The position numbers and the translations under genes are program-made. The notes beneath the pieces were generated by a model. The model had not been told where the DNA came from and searched no databases. It saw only the letters and a list, made by a program, of their open reading frames with translations. Shown here piece by piece: positions 6,158-23,749 of a DNA stretch of 64,000 nucleotides. Location of the stretch: the NCBI RefSeq assembly GCF_009208775.1, contig NZ_WFLM01000004.1:1-64000 (forward strand). The letters run 5' to 3'. The first letter of the stretch is position 1; each line of letters starts with the position of its first letter. The stretch comes from Silvanigrella paludirubra (GTDB lineage Bacteria; Bdellovibrionota_B; Oligoflexia; Silvanigrellales; Silvanigrellaceae).

Positions 6158-8563
6158 ATGGCACTTAAAAAATCTGAACTCTATTCATCATTATGGGCGA
6201 GTTGCGACGAGCTTCGTGGTGGAATGGACGCGAGTCAATACAAAGACTACGTTCTGGTATTTCTTTTTATAAAATATATTAGCGATAAATATGCAGATCA
6301 AAAATACGCACCAATTACAATTCCAAAGGGCGCAAGTTTTGCAGATATGGTTGCCCTAAAGGGAAAACCAGATATTGGTGATCAAATTAATAAAAAAGTG
6401 ATTGGGCCACTGGCAAAAGAGAACAAGTTATCCGACATGCCCGATTTTGATGACTCAGCAAAACTTGGTAGCGGAAAAGAAAAAGTAGATCGCCTCACAA
6501 ATTTAATTGCCATTTTTGAGAACCCTGCCCTAGATTTTTCAAAAAACAGAGCAGATGGCGATGACATACTTGGTGATGCATACGAATATTTAATGCGACA
6601 TTTTGCTACGGAGAGTGGTAAAAGTAAGGGGCAGTTTTATACTCCCGCTGAAGTAAGCCGCATTATGGCTCAAATTTTAAATATCGCAAATGCTAAAGTG
6701 ACAACAGATACTACGGTGTATGACCCTACTTGTGGTTCTGGTTCCTTGCTTTTGAAAGTTGGAGAAGCAGCAAAAATAAAACCAACACTCTATGGACAAG
6801 AAAAAGATTCGGCCACAAGCAGCTTGGCTCGAATGAATATGTTTCTTCATAACAACCCAACAGCTTTAATTACTCAAGGTAACACCATTGCGGACCCTAA
6901 ATTTTTAAATGGAAATAATTTAAAACAATTTGATTATATTGTCGCTAATCCTCCCTTTTCAGATAAACGCTGGAGTACAGGCATTGATCCTTCTAGTGAT
7001 CCTTTTGGTCGTTTTGCTACTTTTGGGATTCCTCCAGCCAAACAAGGTGACTATGCTTATTTGCTTCACATCGTGCGCTCCTTAAAAAGCACAGGTATTG
7101 GTGCTTGCATTTTACCTCATGGGGTTCTTTTTAGAGGAAATGCAGAAGGGGATATTCGCAAAAACTTAATTACAAAAAACGGTTGTTACATTAAAGGAAT
7201 TATTGGTCTTCCTGCAAACTTGTTTTATGGAACAGGGATTCCTGCTTGTATCATTGTTATTGATAAAAAAGAAGCTTTTGCGCGCAAGGGCATTTTTATG
7301 ATCGATGCCAGTCAAGGGTATATGAAGGATGGTCCAAAAAATCGCTTAAGAGATCAAGATATTCATAAAATAGTTGATATATTTAATAATCAAATTGAGT
7401 TTCCTAAATACTCACGATTTGTTCCTCTTTCAGAAATTGAAAAAAATGATTATAACTTAAATCTTCCACGTTACATTGATAGTCAAGTTACCGAAGATCA
7501 ACAAGACATCGAGGCACACCTTAAAGGTGGAATTCCAAAAGCGGATATCGATGCGCTTGCAAAATATTGGGATATTTGTCCAAAAATAAAAACGTCACTT
7601 TTTAAAGAAATTCGTCCCGGCTACTTTAAGTTGACGGTTGATAAATCTGAAATTAAATCAGCGATTTTTGGCCATCATGAATTTAAAAATTTTATTGCTT
7701 CAATGAATTCTCATTTTGAAGAATGGAAAATAAAAACAGCAAAAGCACTCAAAAAATTAGAAGTTCATTTTCATCCCAAAGACGAAATTAAAAAACTGTC
7801 TGAAGATTTATTGCTCCATTATGAAAATAAACCTCTTATTGATGCATACGACATTTACCAACATTTAATGAATTATTGGGCAACAACTTTGTCGGATGAT
7901 TTTTATTTAATTTCTGCCGATGGATGGAAAGCGAATACCTATCGCATTATGGAAAAAGATAAAAAAGGAAAAGAAAAAGACAAAGGCTGGACGTGTGACC
8001 TTATTCCTAAAAATTTAATAATTGCAAAATATTTTTCTAATGAACAAGCAAATATGGATAAAGTAAATGCAAATTTAGAATTACTTACTTCACAAATTAC
8101 TGAAATGGAAGAAGAACATGGTGGTGAAGAGGGCGCTTTTAGTGAGCTTGAAAAAGTAAATAAAGCCAATGCGACAGCAAGGCTCAAAGAAATTGCCAAA
8201 GATAAAAGTGCGAAAGAGGAAGCAGAAATTCTTAAAAAATATATTGCACTTTGTGAAGAAGAAAGTGAATTAAAGAAACAAGTAAAAGAATTAGAAACTG
8301 CGCTCGATGAAAAAACTTTAAATCAATATCCAAAGCTAAAAGAAACAGACATTAAAAATTTAGTGGTTGATGATAAATGGATGGCAACCCTTGATAAAGA
8401 TATTCATGGTGAATTAGATCGCGTGAGTCAAACCTTAACTTCACGCATTAAAGAACTTGCCGAACGCTACGATTCAGCACTTCCTGATCTTCTTAAAGAT
8501 GTTTCGTTATTTGAATTAAAAGTAAATAAACATCTCGAAAAAATGGGGTTTTTATGGAATTAA
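6158..8563 (+). CDS. hsdM: Type I restriction-modification system, DNA methyltransferase subunit HsdM
   Basis: This 801-aa protein is the N6-adenine methyltransferase subunit. The HsdM N-terminal helical domain ('LWASCDELRGGMDASQYKDYVLVFLFIKYISDK') is followed by the SAM-binding motif I DPTCGSGSLLL (about 189-199) and the catalytic NPPF motif (about 264). It is longer than the classical ~500-aa HsdM. The extra C-terminal ~300 residues include a Glu/Lys-rich coiled coil (about 640-740), a known long-HsdM variant. It overlaps hsdS by 10 bp. With HsdS it forms the modification methylase and with HsdR the restriction complex. Confidence 0.96.
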   Translation: MALKKSELYSSLWASCDELRGGMDASQYKDYVLVFLFIKYISDKYADQKYAPITIPKGASFADMVALKGKPDIGDQINKKVIGPLAKENKLSDMPDFDDSAKLGSGKEKVDRLTNLIAIFENPALDFSKNRADGDDILGDAYEYLMRHFATESGKSKGQFYTPAEVSRIMAQILNIANAKVTTDTTVYDPTCGSGSLLLKVGEAAKIKPTLYGQEKDSATSSLARMNMFLHNNPTALITQGNTIADPKFLNGNNLKQFDYIVANPPFSDKRWSTGIDPSSDPFGRFATFGIPPAKQGDYAYLLHIVRSLKSTGIGACILPHGVLFRGNAEGDIRKNLITKNGCYIKGIIGLPANLFYGTGIPACIIVIDKKEAFARKGIFMIDASQGYMKDGPKNRLRDQDIHKIVDIFNNQIEFPKYSRFVPLSEIEKNDYNLNLPRYIDSQVTEDQQDIEAHLKGGIPKADIDALAKYWDICPKIKTSLFKEIRPGYFKLTVDKSEIKSAIFGHHEFKNFIASMNSHFEEWKIKTAKALKKLEVHFHPKDEIKKLSEDLLLHYENKPLIDAYDIYQHLMNYWATTLSDDFYLISADGWKANTYRIMEKDKKGKEKDKGWTCDLIPKNLIIAKYFSNEQANMDKVNANLELLTSQITEMEEEHGGEEGAFSELEKVNKANATARLKEIAKDKSAKEEAEILKKYIALCEEESELKKQVKELETALDEKTLNQYPKLKETDIKNLVVDDKWMATLDKDIHGELDRVSQTLTSRIKELAERYDSALPDLLKDVSLFELKVNKHLEKMGFLWN

Positions 8564-9759
8564 AGGAAGGATTTAAGAAGACAGAGATTGGTTTTATTCC
8601 AGTTGATTGGAAAACTGAAAATCTAAGAGAAAATCTGTTGGGAATTCCCAAGTATGGTATTAATGCTTCTGCTGTTACTTTTGATTCAAGACTACCAACT
8701 TATTTGAGAATAACAGACATAACTGATGAAGGGAGAATTAACCCTGACTCTCTCGCATCGGTTAATCATCGGGCCGCAAATGAGTATAGATTAGAAGAAT
8801 ATGATGTTGTTTTTGCTAGAACAGGAGCTAGTGTTGGAAAAAGCTATTTGTATCAAAAAAAAGATGGTGAGTTTGTTTATGCTGGTTTCTTGATACGAGT
8901 TCAAACAGATCATCATAAATTATATGCTCCATATTTGTTCCAATTTTCAAAAAGTGCTCAGTATTGGAAATGGATTCGTGAACACTCTATGCGAAGCGGT
9001 CAACCAGGTGTAAATGGAAAACAATATTCTGAATTACAAATTCCATTACCTCCATCAATAAAAGAACAAAAAGTCATTGCCAACGCTCTTTCCGATGCAG
9101 ATTCCTACATTGAATCACTCGAAAAACTCATCGCTAAAAAACAACTTATTAAAAAAGGTGTGATGCAAGAGTTATTAACAGGCAAGAGGCGATTGGATGG
9201 CTGTTATCACAGCTGGTCTAAAAAGACTTTAGGAGAAATTTCTGAAATAATAATGGGTCAATCTCCTCTATCTTCATTTTATAATACTTTTGGTAATGGT
9301 TTACCACTAATTCAGGGGAATTCTGACATTATTAATAGAAAACCTATTCAACGTGTTTTTACAACAAACGTGACTAAAAAAGGGGAACCAGGAGATATAC
9401 TAATTAGTGTTCGAGCGCCTGTTGGAACAGTAGCTAAAGCTTCGTTTGATTGTTGTCTTGGACGAGGTATTTGTGCACTAAGAAATGCAGGTGATTTTTT
9501 ATATTATGCTCTTGAAGCAAAAGAATCTCATTGGTCATCTTTATCAAAAGGATCAACTTTTGATTCAGTAACTTCATTGGAGTTAAAGAATTTTCTAATT
9601 CATTATCCTAATGATGAAATTGAACGCAATTTAATATCACAAGTAATTATTAATATAGATGAAGATATAAGAGGAACAGAAAAAGCCCTCACCAAAGCCC
9701 GCCAAATTAAACAAGGCATGATGCAACAATTACTGACAGGAAGGATCCGTTTAGTATGA
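8554..9759 (+). CDS. hsdS: Type I restriction-modification system, specificity subunit HsdS
   Basis: This 401-aa protein is the DNA-recognition subunit. It has two target-recognition domains (TRD1 about 10-165, TRD2 about 217-350), each followed by a helical conserved region. Those regions are internal repeats ending in GVMQELLTGKRRL (about 203-215) and GMMQQLLTGRIRL (388-400). The layout predicts a bipartite target sequence. The start overlaps hsdM and the stop overlaps the hsdR ATG as ATGA. No simple-sequence tract or inverted second hsdS copy suggests phase variation here. Confidence 0.95.
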   Translation: MELKEGFKKTEIGFIPVDWKTENLRENLLGIPKYGINASAVTFDSRLPTYLRITDITDEGRINPDSLASVNHRAANEYRLEEYDVVFARTGASVGKSYLYQKKDGEFVYAGFLIRVQTDHHKLYAPYLFQFSKSAQYWKWIREHSMRSGQPGVNGKQYSELQIPLPPSIKEQKVIANALSDADSYIESLEKLIAKKQLIKKGVMQELLTGKRRLDGCYHSWSKKTLGEISEIIMGQSPLSSFYNTFGNGLPLIQGNSDIINRKPIQRVFTTNVTKKGEPGDILISVRAPVGTVAKASFDCCLGRGICALRNAGDFLYYALEAKESHWSSLSKGSTFDSVTSLELKNFLIHYPNDEIERNLISQVIINIDEDIRGTEKALTKARQIKQGMMQQLLTGRIRLV

Positions 9760-12700
9760 GTGATGTTATTGGAAAGTCAGAAAAAGTAACACAAAATCGC
9801 ATTATTGATCTTTTTATAAATGAGCTGGGCTTTCATTATTTAGGCAATTGGTCTGAACGAAAAGGGAACAGCAATATTGAAGAAGAATTTTTAACGAAAT
9901 ATCTTAATAAAAATGGGTATTCGAAAGAAAAAATAAATGTAGCAATAAATAAACTAAAGACTGAAGCCAATAACTACAATCGTACACTCTACCAAAACAA
10001 CAAAGAAGTTTATTCTCTGTTACGTTATGGAGCGTCAGTTAAAATTGACGTAACAAAATCAAATGAAACTATAAAATATATCAATTGGGATGATCCGCAA
10101 AAAAATGATTTTGCAATTGCCGAAGAGGTCACATTACAAGGTAACAACGAACGTCGACCTGACCTAGTTCTTTATATTAACGGAATTGCAATATCTGTTA
10201 TTGAATTAAAAAACAGTCGAGTAAGTATTGGTGATGGTATCAGTCAGTTAATTTCCAATCAGCTGCCGGAATTTAATGAATGGTTTTTTACAACAACTCA
10301 AATTCTTTTTGCGGGAAGTGATGCAGAAGGTTTAAAATACGGAACCATTCGTACGCCAGAAAAATACTATTTAACTTGGAAAGAAGATGAGCAGGAAAAT
10401 GAACGGTTTAAACTGGATAAATACATATTAAAAATATGTGAAAAAAAACGTTTCATCGAACTTTTGCATGACTTCATTCTGTTCGATGGCGGAGAAAAAA
10501 AACTGCCGAGGGTGCATCAATATTTTGGAGTAAAAGCTGCGCAAGAATTTATGAAACGCCGTGAAGGTGGGATTATTTGGCACACGCAGGGAAGTGGTAA
10601 AAGTATTGTAATGGTTTTACTAGCTAGGTGGATTTTAGAAAACATTTCTAAAGCAAGAGTATTGATTATTACCGATCGGCAGGAGCTAGATGCACAAATA
10701 AAAAGTGTGTTTGAATCCTCTGGGGAAAGTATTTATCAAACGAGCAGTGGGATTGATCTCATGTCAAAACTTGCCCTTCCTACCCCTCGGCTTTTTTGCT
10801 CGCTTGTTCATAAATTTGGTCAGCGTGATGTTGGTAATATAGATAAATTTATAGAAGAAATTAAGTCAAGACCTAGTATTGTTGTGGGTGAATTATTTGT
10901 ATTTGTTGATGAGTGCCATCGCACACAAAGCGGGGATCTTCATGATTTAATGAAGGCCATTATGGCAAATGCCGTATTTGTTGGATTTACGGGTACTCCG
11001 CTTTTAAAAAATGATAAAAATAAAACACTAGATGCTTTTGGCAAATATATACACACCTATAAATTTAGTGAAGCGGTTGCAGATAAAGTTATTTTAGATC
11101 TTTTATATGAAGCTAGAGATATTGATCAACGTCTTAGTTCAGTAGAGAAAATAGATGCTTGGTTTGACGCTAAAACTCGTGGATTAAATAGTTGGCAAAA
11201 AGACGAACTTAAAAAACAATGGTCCACAATGCAGAGAGTATTGAGTTCACGCTCACGAATGGAAAAAGTGGTTGCAGATATAGTCTTTGATTTTGGTGTT
11301 AAGCCAAGATTAAATAACAATAGAGGCAATGCTATATTAGTCGCTGCTAGTATTTTTGAAGCTTGTAAATATTATGAGCTGTTTCAAAAAACGGTATTTA
11401 AAGGCAATTGCGCTATTGTTACCTCATATAATTTAGATAAAAGAGATACGACCAAAGAAGAAACAGGGGCAAATACAGAGACCGATCGCCAAGTTATTTA
11501 TAACACTTATTTTGAGTTGTTAAAAAATGTTCAAGCGTTACCTAATTTATCAAAAACGGAAACGTATGAAGCAAAGGCAAAGGATAAATTTAAAAAAGAA
11601 CCAGCTAATATGAAACTATTGGTGGTTGTTGATAAATTATTAACGGGATTTGATGCCCCCTCCTGTACTTATATTTATATAGATAAAAGTATGCAAAATC
11701 ACGGTCTTTTTCAGGCAATTTGTCGGACAAATCGTCTAGATGGAGAGGATAAAGTTTTTGGTTACATTGTTGATTATAAGGATTTATTTAAAAGTGTAGA
11801 AAAAGTCATCTCTGTTTATAGTTCGGAAATAGATCATAGTACGGACAAAATAGATGGGGCAGATTCCGATGTATTAATGAACAATAGACTAAATAAAGCC
11901 CGTGAAAAATTAGATCAAGCATTAGAAATGATGTTTCTTATTTTAGAGCCTATTCCACAACCGAAAGGGGAATGGGAAAGTATTCGTTATTTTTGTGGGA
12001 ATACAGAGATTGCAACAGATTTAAAAGACAAAGAATCTCTTCGAATTTCTTTATATAAAACAGTGGCAACATTTCTTCGCGCCTATGCAAACGTATCAGA
12101 TGATTTAGAAGCAGCAGATTATTCGCAAGAAGATATAACGCGCATAAAAAAACAGCTAAACCAAGCGATTGACCTACGCGCTCTAATTCGTAGAGCAAGT
12201 GGTGAAGAATTGGATTTAAAAGCCTACGAAGCAGACATGAGACATTTACTTGATTCCTATATTGAAGCTTCAGATCCAAGAAAAATTTCACCTTTTGACG
12301 ATGTGCCACTTCTTGAATTGATTGTTAAATCTGGAATTGCAGAAGCCTTTACGCAAAAGTTTGGTAACAAGCAACCCAAAGATGATAAGTCTGTGGCTGA
12401 AGTCGTAGAAAACAATATAAGAAGTAAAATTATGAAGGAGCATCTTCATGATCCCGCTTTTTTTGAAAGAATGTCAAAGCTTTTAGACGAGGTTGTTAAA
12501 TTCAGAAAAGAGAACGCAAACAAATATGAAGAGTATCTGCTTAAAGTCGTGAATTTAGCTAAAAGAATTCAGTCTGGCTCAGCGTCACAAATGCCATCAT
12601 CTTTACAAACACTTGGGCAAAAAGCGCTTTATAATAACTTAGGAGAACAGGAAGAGCTTGCATTAACAATAGATATGACATTAAAACAAGTGCGCCCTGC

Positions 12701-12821
12701 CGATTGGAGAGGGGTGCAAACTCGAGAGAATGTCATTAAGCAAGCCTTATATGAAATTCTTAAGAGTGAAAAAGAAGTAGAAAGAATTTTTAATATTGTA
12801 TTTATCCACAAGGAATATTGA
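9756..12821 (+). CDS. hsdR: Type I restriction endonuclease subunit HsdR
   Basis: This 1021-aa protein is the motor and nuclease subunit. The N-terminal PD-(D/E)xK nuclease is visible as PDLVLY...VIELKNSR (about 134-152). The SF2 helicase has Walker A QGSGKS (about 278-283), the DEAD-like box VDECHR (about 385-390) and motif III GFTGTPLL (about 410). The helical C-terminus contacts HsdM. Catalytic motifs all look intact, with no frameshift. Its ATG overlaps the hsdS stop by 4 bp, so translation is coupled. The product translocates DNA and cuts unmodified targets. Confidence 0.96.
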   Translation: MSDVIGKSEKVTQNRIIDLFINELGFHYLGNWSERKGNSNIEEEFLTKYLNKNGYSKEKINVAINKLKTEANNYNRTLYQNNKEVYSLLRYGASVKIDVTKSNETIKYINWDDPQKNDFAIAEEVTLQGNNERRPDLVLYINGIAISVIELKNSRVSIGDGISQLISNQLPEFNEWFFTTTQILFAGSDAEGLKYGTIRTPEKYYLTWKEDEQENERFKLDKYILKICEKKRFIELLHDFILFDGGEKKLPRVHQYFGVKAAQEFMKRREGGIIWHTQGSGKSIVMVLLARWILENISKARVLIITDRQELDAQIKSVFESSGESIYQTSSGIDLMSKLALPTPRLFCSLVHKFGQRDVGNIDKFIEEIKSRPSIVVGELFVFVDECHRTQSGDLHDLMKAIMANAVFVGFTGTPLLKNDKNKTLDAFGKYIHTYKFSEAVADKVILDLLYEARDIDQRLSSVEKIDAWFDAKTRGLNSWQKDELKKQWSTMQRVLSSRSRMEKVVADIVFDFGVKPRLNNNRGNAILVAASIFEACKYYELFQKTVFKGNCAIVTSYNLDKRDTTKEETGANTETDRQVIYNTYFELLKNVQALPNLSKTETYEAKAKDKFKKEPANMKLLVVVDKLLTGFDAPSCTYIYIDKSMQNHGLFQAICRTNRLDGEDKVFGYIVDYKDLFKSVEKVISVYSSEIDHSTDKIDGADSDVLMNNRLNKAREKLDQALEMMFLILEPIPQPKGEWESIRYFCGNTEIATDLKDKESLRISLYKTVATFLRAYANVSDDLEAADYSQEDITRIKKQLNQAIDLRALIRRASGEELDLKAYEADMRHLLDSYIEASDPRKISPFDDVPLLELIVKSGIAEAFTQKFGNKQPKDDKSVAEVVENNIRSKIMKEHLHDPAFFERMSKLLDEVVKFRKENANKYEEYLLKVVNLAKRIQSGSASQMPSSLQTLGQKALYNNLGEQEELALTIDMTLKQVRPADWRGVQTRENVIKQALYEILKSEKEVERIFNIVFIHKEY

Positions 12822-17939: not shown

Positions 17940-20900
17940 GTGAGGTTCTTTTTGAGACTTCGCAAACATTCTATCCAAAATATAATTCAAACCATTCCTC
18001 TTCAAGACCACCTACGACGTTTTATGGATGTGAAGCGTTCTGGAGGGAATGCGGTTGCAAAATGCCCATTTCATCAAGATTCTTCGCCAAGTATGTATAT
18101 TTATCAAAATAATTATCATTGTTTTGCCTGCAAGGCTCATGGAACTGTGATTGATTATGAAATGCACCGTACGGGTTGTTCGTTTCGTGAGGCGGTGGAA
18201 AGTTTATCTCAAACGTATCAAATTCCTTTAGAATACGAATCAAGCTCTGAAGAAAAGCAGAATAGTGCCAAAAATGATTTTTTTGAGGCACAAAATAAAG
18301 AACTCGAAAAAATACATTTATTTTTTAAAGAAAATTTAAATAGCTTGATAGATAGTAATTCACATTCTATAAAGCTTGATTTTAAAGATTTTTTAATAAA
18401 TAAATTAAAAAAATATATTGAATTTGTTTATACAGGGGAGCAATCTACTTGTGATTCCTTTATGGAAAATATTTCTTTAAAAGAGATTTTTAAATTAGAT
18501 TTATCGGATAGATTTGCCTTTCCTATATATAAAGAAAATGGAAAATTAGGTGGATTTGCTTTTTCTAATAAAATAACCCAATTTAATAATGAAGAACCTT
18601 TTTCTGAAAATAACTTTTTAAGTTTTTTAAATGATTTAGAAATTTTTACTCCTTTTCCGAAATCGACATTACATTGGTTAAATTGGCACCAAGCAAGAAA
18701 TCAATTAAATAATCAAAAAAATATAATTGTTACTGCAAATTTTTATGATTTATATTACTTACTTTCATTAGGTAAATTAAATACAATTGCTTGTTTGCAA
18801 AATAAAATAGATACGTCATTAGCAAAAGTTTTAGCTAAAAAAGTACCAAGAATCACGATTGCTGTTTCTTCTCTAGCAAATCAAAATATGTTTTTATGGA
18901 AAACATTTTTAGAAACGATAATTTTAAGTGATTTATCTTTTGATACCGTTTTTTTCTCATTACAAAATGAAAATATATCTTCAGAAGATTTAAATAAAGT
19001 CTTTTTAAATACAAAACCTCTTTGGGAAGAAATTGTAAATAAATTTTTTGATAATATTCCATCTTCTATTAAATTAGGAGAATTTCAAAAAAAACTGTTA
19101 CCTATTTTTAATAAAATTGAGGATCAGTCTCGAAAAGAATTGATATTAGATAACATAGCAGCTAAATATTTTGGTTCCTCAAAAAAAATATTTGGATCTG
19201 CTAATTATAATAAGTATAAACTAAAAAGTTCGGATAATAATAAAGTAAATATTCCTCCAGTAGTTCAAAAAAATGAAATAAAAATAGAAAAAAAATTGCC
19301 CCAAAAAGAAACTCTTAAATTGGATAAAAATTTTGAAATTGAGAAAGAATATATTGCAAAATCTGTATATTTTTATCACAAAATTCTATTATCGGATTTG
19401 CCTTTAGCAAAAGAGGCACGTTTGTATTTAGAGCAAAGAGGAATTGAATTAGAACATATTGTTAAATGGGGATTTGGATTTTGCCCTTATTCAAATGAAT
19501 TATCTAGAAAGGTTGAAAAAAAATTAGTCCCTTCTGAACCTTTACTTGAGCTTGGATTAATTAAAAAAAGTAAAATAAATGATGGCTTTTACGACTTTTT
19601 TCATGATAGAATAATAATACCTATTTATGGACATGAAGGCTCTATTATTGCACTTTCTGGTCGTTTATTTCAACCTCATTTGCAATCAAAAACAAAAGAA
19701 TTGCCAAAATATATAAATTCACCTGAGTCCGCAATTTTTGCAAAATCGAATGTTTTATATCATTTTTACGCTGCTCTTCAATCCATAGTTAGTTATGGTT
19801 TTGTATTAGTAGTTGAAGGTTATATGGATTGTATTTCTTTAGTGAATGCTGGGGTAACAAATACGGTCGCTGTTATGGGAACAAGTCTTACCCACTCACA
19901 TATGGAAGCTCTTTCAAAAGTAACTAAAAGAATAATTATATGCTTTGACTCGGATAAAGCAGGTCAAAATGCAGCAAGAAGAACTTTCTTTATTGCTTTT
20001 CCTTTTAAAGGAATTGATTTGGAGTATTTAGAAATTCCTGATGGAAAAGATCCAGACGATTTTATTAAAAAATATGGGGTGAATGAATTTCATGCTTTAA
20101 TACCTAAGACAGAGCCTTTGTTAAATAGGGTATGCAAATGGTTTTTTGAAGAATCTAATTTTAAGCCAGAAGTTTTTTTAAGGCAGGCAAAAGAACATAT
20201 TCTTCCTATTATTTTGCAGCACCCTGATAAACAAGTTCAAGACGAATCCTTACTATTTTTATGTGACAAATACTTTGAAAATGTATATCCTGAAGACCTT
20301 CGACAAGAAATGGAAGGCTTATCTTCATTGCATATAAAGCCTCATTTTGTTAAAGACGTCGCTAAGCCTGAAGCCTTTTCTCTTGAAGAGTGGCCTGTCT
20401 TTTCCGTTACTGAAGTTAAATTAATTTTATCACTTGTCCATTCAAGGTTTTATGAGTTACCAATACGCTTGCGTAATGTAGCTCAAGGATTATCAAGCTC
20501 AGAAGAGGCTAACGAGCGTATTTGTGCATTAGCAATAAGCAATCAAATGAGTAAGATAAGTTTTTCTGTTTATCTTGAATTGCTGACAGCTATGGTTGAA
20601 AACCAGCACGTTTCTTTAATTGAGCTTGAAGACTTGGATAAATTTAACTTTTCGCATCAGACAAAAGTGGTTCTGGCTTATGCAAATTCAAATGTTCACA
20701 TTTTATTTCAATATAAGATGGAGGAATTGCTGAAAGAAAGCTTGCCAGTGGGCGTGTCCATGATATCATTTAAGAACATTTGGGATTTAAAAAATTCTGG
20801 TTTTTTGAGGTTTCAGTTGCGAAATATTAAACTTTCCTCGCAAAGAGGTGTTTTATCGGCATTTACGGCTGAGGCTTTACTTCAATTGGAACTCGAATAT

Positions 20901-21035
20901 ATTGACAACGCTCTAAAAGCTTTTTCGAGTTTCCATTTTGATAATGAGATAGATAAACAGTTTCATGACCTTGTCAGAGAGCGTACAAGGCGTAGCAAGG
21001 AATTTGGTTCTTTTGAATCTTTTAATTTGCAATAA
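17940..21035 (+). CDS. dnaG: DNA primase DnaG with a duplicated, partly degenerate catalytic core
   Basis: This primase has 1031 codons against about 600 normally. The CHC2 zinc domain (CPFHQDSSPS...CFACKAHG, about 42-68) is intact. An extra core follows at about 117-412, then the catalytic core at about 466-780: RNAP segment DRIIIPIY, KYINSPE, TOPRIM VVEGYMD with Glu626, and FDSDKAG with Asp670/Asp672. The extra core aligns with the true one along its length (DRFAFPIY, FLNDLEIFTPFPKS, VTANFYD, AVSSLANQ) but lacks the acidic residues. Residues ~800-1031 form a divergent C-terminal domain, probably the helicase-binding end. The start is GTG; an in-frame TTG at 17952 with GAGG 6 nt upstream is equally plausible. 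Confidence 0.93.
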   Translation: MRFFLRLRKHSIQNIIQTIPLQDHLRRFMDVKRSGGNAVAKCPFHQDSSPSMYIYQNNYHCFACKAHGTVIDYEMHRTGCSFREAVESLSQTYQIPLEYESSSEEKQNSAKNDFFEAQNKELEKIHLFFKENLNSLIDSNSHSIKLDFKDFLINKLKKYIEFVYTGEQSTCDSFMENISLKEIFKLDLSDRFAFPIYKENGKLGGFAFSNKITQFNNEEPFSENNFLSFLNDLEIFTPFPKSTLHWLNWHQARNQLNNQKNIIVTANFYDLYYLLSLGKLNTIACLQNKIDTSLAKVLAKKVPRITIAVSSLANQNMFLWKTFLETIILSDLSFDTVFFSLQNENISSEDLNKVFLNTKPLWEEIVNKFFDNIPSSIKLGEFQKKLLPIFNKIEDQSRKELILDNIAAKYFGSSKKIFGSANYNKYKLKSSDNNKVNIPPVVQKNEIKIEKKLPQKETLKLDKNFEIEKEYIAKSVYFYHKILLSDLPLAKEARLYLEQRGIELEHIVKWGFGFCPYSNELSRKVEKKLVPSEPLLELGLIKKSKINDGFYDFFHDRIIIPIYGHEGSIIALSGRLFQPHLQSKTKELPKYINSPESAIFAKSNVLYHFYAALQSIVSYGFVLVVEGYMDCISLVNAGVTNTVAVMGTSLTHSHMEALSKVTKRIIICFDSDKAGQNAARRTFFIAFPFKGIDLEYLEIPDGKDPDDFIKKYGVNEFHALIPKTEPLLNRVCKWFFEESNFKPEVFLRQAKEHILPIILQHPDKQVQDESLLFLCDKYFENVYPEDLRQEMEGLSSLHIKPHFVKDVAKPEAFSLEEWPVFSVTEVKLILSLVHSRFYELPIRLRNVAQGLSSSEEANERICALAISNQMSKISFSVYLELLTAMVENQHVSLIELEDLDKFNFSHQTKVVLAYANSNVHILFQYKMEELLKESLPVGVSMISFKNIWDLKNSGFLRFQLRNIKLSSQRGVLSAFTAEALLQLELEYIDNALKAFSSFHFDNEIDKQFHDLVRERTRRSKEFGSFESFNLQ
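18288..19175 (+). repeat. Degenerate first copy of the primase core inside dnaG
   Basis: Residues ~117-412 of DnaG are a diverged protein-level repeat of residues ~466-780. Matching landmarks occur in the same order: SDRFAFPIY/HDRIIIPIY, LHWLNWHQA/LYHFYAALQ, NIIVTANFYD/FVLVVEGYMD, LNTIACLQ/TNTVAVMG, PRITIAVSS/KRIIICFDSD, LLPIFNKI/ILPIILQH, AAKYF/CDKYF. Catalytic Glu and both Asp residues are Ala, Ser and Leu in this copy. The alignment was made by eye. Confidence 0.75.
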
Positions 21036-21127: not shown

Positions 21128-23749
21128 ATGACGAATTCCAAGTCAAAGTCTGCAACTGTAGGTGGTCAGAAACGTGCTTCTGAGCCAACCCAAAAAGAAA
21201 AATCCGCAAGCTCAAAGCCAGCTTCACAGCCATCAAAAAAAGTGGAAAAGAATCCGGTAAAGTCACAGAACTCTTCTAAGCCTGTGGATTTAAAAACGGT
21301 TAAAAAAGAGAATCATCAAACGATTAAAAAACAACCTAGCTCTAAATCAACTCAGAGCCCTGATGCGGATGAAAATCATTCTTTGGAAAAAGATACGAAA
21401 AAAACGGTGGTTTTTCGCTCTGAAAAAGATCCTAAAAGTCCACAAATAAAGTCGAATCGTGACGTTAAATTAACAGATAAAGGTACTGATAAAGAAAAAT
21501 TAGTGCCTTCTAAATTAGAAAAAAACAATAAAGATACTATGGCGAATAAAAAAGTTACAAAACCAGCTGATGAAGAGTCTATGAATATAAATCCTAATAT
21601 GGTTAAAAAAGAGTCTATTCCTGCTAAAGGTGGGAAACTTTCTCCTTTAAAATCAGATACTGTTTTAGCAAAAACCTCAGGTGGCAAACCCAATATCGTT
21701 ATAAAAAAGAAGTCAGATAAAGACTCCTCCTCTTTAGAACAAGATAAAAAATCTTTGTTAAACGTAACAGATCCTTCTAAACAAAAGTCAAAATCAGCAG
21801 TAACAGGCGCTCAAGCAGATGGGACAAAGTCTCTTGCGACAAAATCAAAAGATGCCGCTGTTTCTTCTTCTGCAAAAGACAAAGATAAAAAAGTAGTAAA
21901 GAATGCGGTTTCTGAAAAGTCATCAGGTTCTAAAAAAGAATCCTCTAAGGCTTTGGATGGTGATTCATCAGAAGAAAAAGTAAGTTTAAAATCAGCTGTT
22001 CCTGGCTCTAAAAAGAAAGATTCTGCTAAAGCAGACCCAACTAAAAAATCAAGTAAACAAGGGAAACAAGGTAAAGGAGCAGATTCAGATGACGACGAAT
22101 CATTTGAAGAAGTTTCTTTAGACGAAGAACCGGATGACTTTGGTGCTGAAGAAGAAGAAGATCTCCTAGGTGATGTCGATCTCGAAGCTGATGAATCTGC
22201 ATCTCTTCCAGAAGACGATTTTCTTGCAGCTGAAGAATTTGGTGCTGATCTTGGTGGTGAAGAAGAAGAACTCGATGCTTCAGCAAGAAGTAACGATCCC
22301 GTTCGTGTTTATTTAAGAAAAATGGGACAAGTTGCTCTTTTATCTCGCGACGGCGAAGTTGAAATTGCCAAAAAAATTGAAAATGAAGAGAACAAGCTGT
22401 TAGAGCACCTTGTTTCTTTACGCATTGGTATCAACCATATGTGTGATGTAGGACAAAAATTTATTGATGGTGTGATTAAAGCGAAAAACCTTGTAAAAGG
22501 TTTTGACGACGAACAAGATCAAGCAAATGATGAAGGCCAATCCCAAAGAGTTCGTGTACTTGTTGAAAGCTTTATGAAGCTTGCGAAAACAGTCATCGAA
22601 ATTGAAGATAAATTTGGCTTACAAGGTCTTGATAAACTCTCTGCTCATGAAAGAGAAATTTTAAAAGAATCACGCGATCAAATGTTTGAAATTGTAAAAG
22701 AGATCAACATCAATCGTCGTATTATTCAACAAATCGTTGCTGAGTTAGACACCCACGCAAAAAGTGTTTCCGACTGTATGAAAGAAACAAATAAAGTGAA
22801 GGTGAGAACGCGTTTAGATGAAGCTCGTTTATCTGCTTATTGCAATGCCAATGCGCCAAGGCCTATAGAAGTAAACTTTTTAACAGAAAAAGATTGGGAA
22901 AACTTTAAAAACACTTATATCTCTGCACAAAATGCAATTTTAATGAGTGAGCAAGCTTGTTTCCTTAGTAGAAGTGAAATTGCGATAAAGTACCAAGTTA
23001 TTAGTAATGCTAATCGTTTCGCAGAAGAAGCAAAACGTGAATTAATAGAAGCAAACCTTCGTTTAGTTGTTTCCATTGCTAAAAAATACATGAACCGTGG
23101 TCTTCAATTTTTGGATCTTATCCAAGAAGGTAACATTGGTCTTATGAAAGCAGTAGAAAAATTTGAATACCGTCGTGGTTACAAATTTAGTACTTATGCT
23201 ACTTGGTGGATTCGCCAAGCGATCACACGTGCTATTGCGGATCAAGCTCGTACCATTCGTATTCCTGTTCATATGATTGAAACGATCAATAAAATGGTTC
23301 GTACAAGTCGTCAATTGGTTCAAGAGATGGGTAGAGAACCTACTCCTGAAGAAATTGCACAGCGTATGGATATGAGTATTGAAAAAGTACGTAAGGTTAT
23401 GAAAATTGCGCGTGAGCCAATTTCTTTGGAAGCTCCTATTGGGGAAGAAGAAGATAATCATTATGGAGACTTTTTAGAAGATAAAGCACATGGTGCGCCT
23501 ATAGACATTGTGGCAAACCAAAGCTTATCTGAGCAAACTAAAAAAGTTCTTGCTACTTTAACTTCTCGCGAAGAAAAAGTGTTACGTATGCGTTTTGGTA
23601 TTGGTGAAAAGACGGACCATACTTTGGAAGAAGTAGGGCAAAGTTTTGATGTAACTAGGGAACGTATTCGTCAGATTGAAGCAAAAGCGTTACGTAAACT
23701 TCGTCATCCAAGCCGTTCTAAAAAATTAAAAGCTTTCATTGAAAGTTAA
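21128..23749 (+). CDS. rpoD: RNA polymerase primary sigma factor (sigma-70) with long low-complexity N-terminus
   Basis: This 873-aa protein is the housekeeping sigma factor. The conserved part starts near residue 389 (region 1.2, [12 protein letters not shown]). Region 2 follows ([13 protein letters not shown]...FLDLIQEGN...[13 protein letters not shown]), then region 3 and region 4 with the helix-turn-helix [18 protein letters not shown]. The first ~330 residues are Lys/Ser-rich and highly basic, then an acidic Glu/Asp stretch (about 320-385) leads into region 1.2. No clear region 1.1 is visible. GGGGG lies about 8 nt before the ATG. It is the last gene of the rpsU-dnaG-rpoD operon, 92 bp after dnaG. 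Confidence 0.97.

Follow-up and report, generated by a model that had tools for sequence, protein, structure and literature searches.

A DnaG primase with a second, apparently inactive RNA-polymerase-type core in Silvanigrella paludirubra

DnaG primase, essential in nearly all bacteria, is regarded as an almost invariant three-domain enzyme. The window analysed here, a stretch of 64,000 nucleotides of Silvanigrella paludirubra (contig NZ_WFLM01000004.1, positions 1 to 64,000), carries a dnaG gene on the + strand (17940..21035; GTG start at 17940, alternative TTG at 17952), whose open reading frame translates to 1031 aa. The whole protein matches TIGR01391 (dnaG, NCBIfam) with 350.6 bits, over a cut-off of 283.6. 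It begins with a CHC2 zinc-binding domain (residues 9-100, 17964..18239; PF01807, E 4.4e-20, 71.7 bits over a cut-off of 24.9), and the other Pfam matches are one DNAG_N (490-612) and one TOPRIM (624-709). Residues 103-460 alone have no Pfam or NCBIfam match. By annotation, the protein is a DnaG containing a ~340-residue unexplained stretch. What is this stretch, and what might it do in a primase? We are almost certain of the anatomy: this is a two-core DnaG, in which the N-terminal core is dead and the C-terminal core is intact.

Two DnaG cores in one chain

The unexplained stretch contains a second complete DnaG RNA-polymerase-type domain, here called copy 1 (residues ~119-420, 18294..19199, +), in front of the active RNA-polymerase domain, core 2 (residues ~466-792, 19335..20315, +; PF08275 E 1.1e-30, Toprim_2 (PF13155) E 1e-22). 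A preliminary description of the sequence had placed a repeat of the core at residues 117-412; the domain is there, with its borders corrected to those given above. The landmarks it had listed for the two copies are also in place and in the same order, for example DRFAFPIY at 190-197 in copy 1 and DRIIIPIY at 556-563 in core 2. Between the KS motif and the TF that follows the DxD motif, the copies align nearly gap-free.

To describe copy 1 as a family, a profile was made from an alignment of eight copies, one from each of eight genomes of the genus. In HHalign comparisons, this profile matches a set of 20 non-genus DnaGs with 99.1% probability (E 1.6e-18) over 273 columns, spanning the entire RNA-polymerase domain. 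Against its own downstream core, the probability is 97.9% (E 3.7e-13). Controls gave at most 1.7% for column-shuffled profiles, 0.3% for the reversed profile, and at most 0.5% for two other parts of the protein, its zinc and C-terminal regions. The corresponding profile-profile scores are 141.6 against the non-genus DnaGs and 95.9 against the own core, where the highest score was 24.8 for column shuffles (40 per comparison) and 17.3 for the reversed profile. Searched over the entire own genome, the copy-1 hidden Markov model (HMM) matches nothing but itself and, with E 8.5e-15, the DnaG core. In the other direction, a DnaG HMM built without the genus scores 12.6-55.4 bits for each of the 7 distinct copy-1 sequences and at most 3.4 bits on 350 shuffles. 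When copy 1 was compared with all PDB chain sequences, three of the four matches at E <=10 were DnaG primases.

The predicted fold agrees with the profiles. AlphaFold2, run without templates and with only the eight rows of the copy-1 alignment, gave a model with a predicted local distance difference test score (pLDDT) of 85.5 and a predicted template modelling score (pTM) of 0.85. Compared with solved structures, the model has Z 20.4 to 5vaz (280 residues, 3.4 A) and 20.0 to 1eqn. With VIA-align the first twelve places are all DnaG catalytic domains (Z 16.7-20.4), followed by T7 gp4 and Twinkle at Z about 11 (Twinkle ~10.7), and Foldseek gives E 3e-10 to 2au3. Residues 107-417 of a full-length model have Z 19.3 to 3b39. 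Two of the checks proposed in the preliminary description, a profile comparison and a structure prediction, identify copy 1 as a DnaG catalytic core, at 99.1% with clean controls and at Z ~20.

Copy-1 residues were mapped to E. coli DnaG numbering by profile alignment. In the window protein the catalytic Glu, E265, is replaced by Ala (posterior 0.999) within ANFYD, a degenerate EGYMD motif (residues 266-270, 18735..18749), and the DxD metal motif has degenerated to VSSLANQ (residues 309-315, 18864..18884), with Asp replaced by Ser and by Leu (posterior 0.99). These three substitutions are exactly those first read from the sequence. Across the eight species, the E265 position is occupied by A, N, N, S, T, T, T and N (posterior at least 0.998) and the D311 position by L, F, F, S, N, N, S and H, so that this Asp is gone in 8/8; at D309, Asp is found in one species only and Glu in another. 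D269 is invariant across copy 1 of the eight species. In core 2, the catalytic motif EGYMD (residues 626-630, 19815..19829) and the metal-binding motif FDSDKAG (residues 669-675, 19944..19964) are conserved in the genus, with EGYMD, FDSD and KDPD invariant in 8/8 species. Judged by these residues, copy 1 is predicted to be catalytically dead, and core 2 to keep all catalytic residues.

The preliminary description did not mention where the dead copy lies relative to the zinc domain. The dead core's first helix lies 64-65 residues from the zinc CFxC motif (57 in one genome); in 20 ordinary DnaGs, the polymerase domain has its first helix at 62-70 residues. From CFxC to the active core there are 400-424 residues in the genus. 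Measured from the zinc motif to EGxxD, the distance is 208-238 residues in 74 DnaGs from outside the genus; a single genus member, the one measured, gave 585. The dead copy, not the active core, holds the catalytic domain's normal place beside the zinc domain; the active core comes behind a fast-evolving linker of ~45 aa (19200..19334).

Distribution, selection and origin

Copy 1 is present in 8/8 genomes of the genus, two of which are single-contig, in open frames of 1031-1070 aa, so the survey of related genomes suggested at the outset finds a DnaG of this length in all eight. With frames cut by contig ends set aside, the DnaGs of six genomes of the same family, of one of the same order and of the rest of the class are ordinary, at about 585-777 aa.

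The ratio of nonsynonymous to synonymous substitutions (dN/dS) was estimated by Nei-Gojobori counting, for which only two close pairs were usable, as distant pairs are saturated. It is 0.13 and 0.30 for copy 1, 0.11 and 0.10 for core 2 in the same two pairs, and 1.1-1.7 for the linker, whose identity to the window protein across the genus is 6-29%. With the linker above 1, the values for copy 1 indicate clear purifying selection.

In the phylogenetic tree, copy 1 forms one clade (100/100) that groups with the DnaGs of its own order (99/99) on very long branches. Unrelated DnaGs, which made up most of the matches listed in a core-2 scan of the genomes, served as outgroups. By the approximately unbiased (AU) test, copy 1 may be sister to its own core (p 0.285), and it may equally come from outside the order (p 0.315); the test rejects neither. 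Because of the long branches, trees and AU tests do not discriminate between sources of copy 1. Identity between copy 1 and its own core is 14-18%, no higher than to other DnaGs. Thus, of the earlier claim of a tandem duplicated core, the part that stands is a dead second DnaG domain in cis with an intact one. That the gene duplicated its own core is a plausible conjecture; the dead copy might even be the original core, behind which a newer one was added. A tblastn search against phages for a source of copy 1 gave one weak partial match only (E 0.5), and so showed no phage source.

What the dead core may do

In the explanation that we favour, the gene would encode the cell's replicative DnaG primase with a second complete RNA-polymerase domain added before the genus diversified, the N-terminal core having lost catalysis to become a structural pseudo-domain and the C-terminal core making the primers. 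As the two other primase-like genes of the genome are of different types, the chromosome is most likely primed by core 2. The zinc domain and the dead core would form a fixed unit with the geometry of a normal zinc/polymerase-domain pair, and the active core would hang behind on a flexible linker, making the chain a built-in pseudo-dimer; we infer that pseudo-dimeric working is the most likely mode of the chain. The zinc domain may read the template while attached to the dead core and work with the tethered active core, or it may work in trans with the active core of a neighbouring primase on the helicase (DnaB) ring. DnaG zinc domains reportedly act in trans on another chain's core, in work attributed to Corn (2005; cited in PMC6163395). 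By setting the reach and timing of the zinc domain to the active site, the dead core could tune initiation frequency or primer length, and it may also dock a partner through a lineage-specific conserved surface. For this statement as a whole, replicative function, pseudo-dimer and tuning included, we would put the probability at roughly 0.4. In its favour are the ordinary spacing between zinc domain and dead core and the purifying selection on copy 1. The helicase shows no matching change: DnaB, present once per genus genome in an open frame of 455-463 aa, is close in length to that of relatives (453-479 aa).

Several observations weigh against it. Identity to the window species is 24-40% for copy 1 and 41-62% for the active core, and copy 1, far more divergent than core 2 beyond the close pairs, would be under loose surface constraint. 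The full-length AlphaFold2 model has a pLDDT of 51.5, with low confidence outside copy 1, for which reason the placement of the zinc domain and the two cores relative to one another is not read from the model. In phage T4, the linker was proposed as a measure of the primer, and primer length was normal with four of five linker mutants (PMC10359460). With linker length changing primer length so little there, spacing need not control primer length.

It is unlikely, though the best of the alternatives, that a replisome partner (clamp loader, single-stranded DNA-binding protein or a lineage-specific protein) docks on the dead core and that the zinc spacing is incidental. Six residues with a reported role in template or nucleoside triphosphate (NTP) binding in other DnaGs, R146, W165, R199, R201, R221 and K229 (PMC5429622), have equivalents that are mostly lost in copy 1, in a part where the alignment is weak (posteriors about 0.1-0.65), while W249, W320, K296 and F323 are invariant in 8/8 copy-1 sequences. 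Pol epsilon provides a precedent, in a dead fold that has lost DNA binding and binds the CMG helicase (PMC6265327). The sequence of the dead core evolves fast, however, and its normal spacing from the zinc domain suggests a role in which the zinc domain takes part.

That the dead core holds additional single-stranded template or senses NTPs, raising processivity or answering alarmones without catalysis, is less probable again. Copy 1 is mildly basic (isoelectric point 7.8-9.2, net charge +1 to +9, where the active core has -6 to +3), and K198, K202, K241 and R253 are kept in 7/8 copy-1 sequences, K241 in a weakly aligned part. The loss of most of the six canonical equivalents stands against this function, with Lys at the K229 position in three copy-1 rows only, likewise where the alignment is weak. 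The proposal in the preliminary description that the extra domain holds template is weakened by the same losses, with the same caution about the alignment.

Of nearly the same low probability is a functionless relic, tolerated since it is folded and harmless (a neutral ratchet). Its low identity across the genus and long branches are what such a relic would give, but copy 1 is kept at 297-313 aa in 8/8 genomes, its dN/dS lies well below that of the adjacent linker, and its predicted fold is confident. Finally, a chance resemblance, frameshift or assembly artefact, in whose favour the region alone has no family match, is refuted by the profile, structure and whole-genome searches and by eight genomes, two in one contig, with the frame open throughout, so that the assembly error named at the outset as a possible refutation falls away.

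Neighbouring genes, other primase-like genes and known systems

The C-terminal region of the primase (20316..21032, ~239 aa) is by position a putative helicase-binding domain; its conservation is 61-69% across most genus members, with the most distant one at 40%. A Pfam scan of this region gave no match, and it matches that of family relatives weakly (E 4.6e-8). The next gene is rpoD (sigma-70; 21128..23749, +), with Pfam sigma-70 regions 1.2, 2, 3 and 4, and the same frame lies downstream of dnaG in the genus loci (L004-L010). In this RpoD of 873 aa, ~385 residues, Lys/Ser-rich and then acidic, precede sigma region 1.2, and the beginning of this low-complexity N terminus is common to genus members. 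Elsewhere in the window are a type I restriction-modification operon, hsdM-hsdS-hsdR (6158-12821, +), and, at ~38000-64000, a region in which GC content rises from ~0.30 to ~0.41, GC skew flipping sign at about 38 kb; the genes beyond ~38 kb, which include rpoC and rpoB, are mostly on the minus strand.

Two further genes of the same genome are primase-like. One encodes a protein of 2296 aa (contig C4, ~604.6-611.5 kb; L033:6628-13518, -) that joins a TrwC relaxase, a TraI-like helicase and a DnaG RNA-polymerase/TOPRIM core (1428-1652), with no zinc-domain match, and is a relaxase-helicase-primase fusion of a conjugative element. The other encodes a protein of 684 aa (contig C1, 43,952 bp; L034:2304-4358, +) in which a CHC2 zinc domain of the DnaG type and an AAA_25 ATPase have no primase-core match between them, and the middle part is possibly unrecognised; a 710-aa frame in G004 (C62) matches its zinc part. 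A family relative also has a second DnaG-like frame of 690 aa with zinc and core parts (G009:C95:8335-10242, -).

The two-core primase consists of known parts; neither the searched literature nor the other genomes examined contained its architecture. No pseudo-, tandem, duplicated or inactive DnaG of this form is described in the literature searched, which lay mostly outside subscription journals, and the Spirobacillus genome paper (PMC12321486) does not mention primase. Bacterial DnaG (TIGR01391; E. coli, PDB 1dd9, 3b39) likewise has zinc, TOPRIM RNA-polymerase and C-terminal domains, with the catalytic motifs seen in core 2, but it is ~600-780 aa long against ~1030 aa here and lacks the extra complete dead core between zinc domain and active core. 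A fragment of Aquifex DnaG (2au3) similarly joins a zinc domain to an RNA-polymerase domain.

In the trans crosstalk of Aquifex primase attributed to Corn (2005), both cores are said to be active and on separate chains, unlike here. The archaeal PriX system, with a primase of the archaeo-eukaryotic primase (AEP) type and PriX as a separate polypeptide, is also unlike the one-chain DnaG of the genus. PriX nevertheless resembles copy 1 as a noncatalytic subunit inside a replicative primase, with PriS/PriL (PMC12019639).

The principle is precedented in Pol epsilon and Twinkle. The catalytic subunit of Pol epsilon (PMC2669801, PMC6265327) carries its catalytic module twice in one chain, once active and once inactivated; it is of an unrelated family, its active module comes first, and its essential helicase binding is shown there and not here. 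The N-terminal domain of animal mitochondrial Twinkle (PMC9723800) is a TOPRIM primase domain without catalysis, kept for another role, but it is fused to a helicase and has no second active primase domain. In bacteria, the primase described here would parallel Pol epsilon with its dead polymerase module and Twinkle with its pseudo-primase. Tentatively, and with odds somewhat short of even, it may be a single-chain pseudo-dimeric primase in which a dead polymerase domain has replaced the catalytic one in its structural position beside the zinc domain. Cooperation of zinc domain and active site would then be freed from the usual short linker and be under the control of a pseudoenzyme, the bacterial equivalent of Pol epsilon's dead half. 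With a dead core in the active core's usual place, zinc domain and active site are naturally separated in the genus, making directly testable the long-debated action of the zinc domain in cis or in trans and its setting of initiation and primer length.
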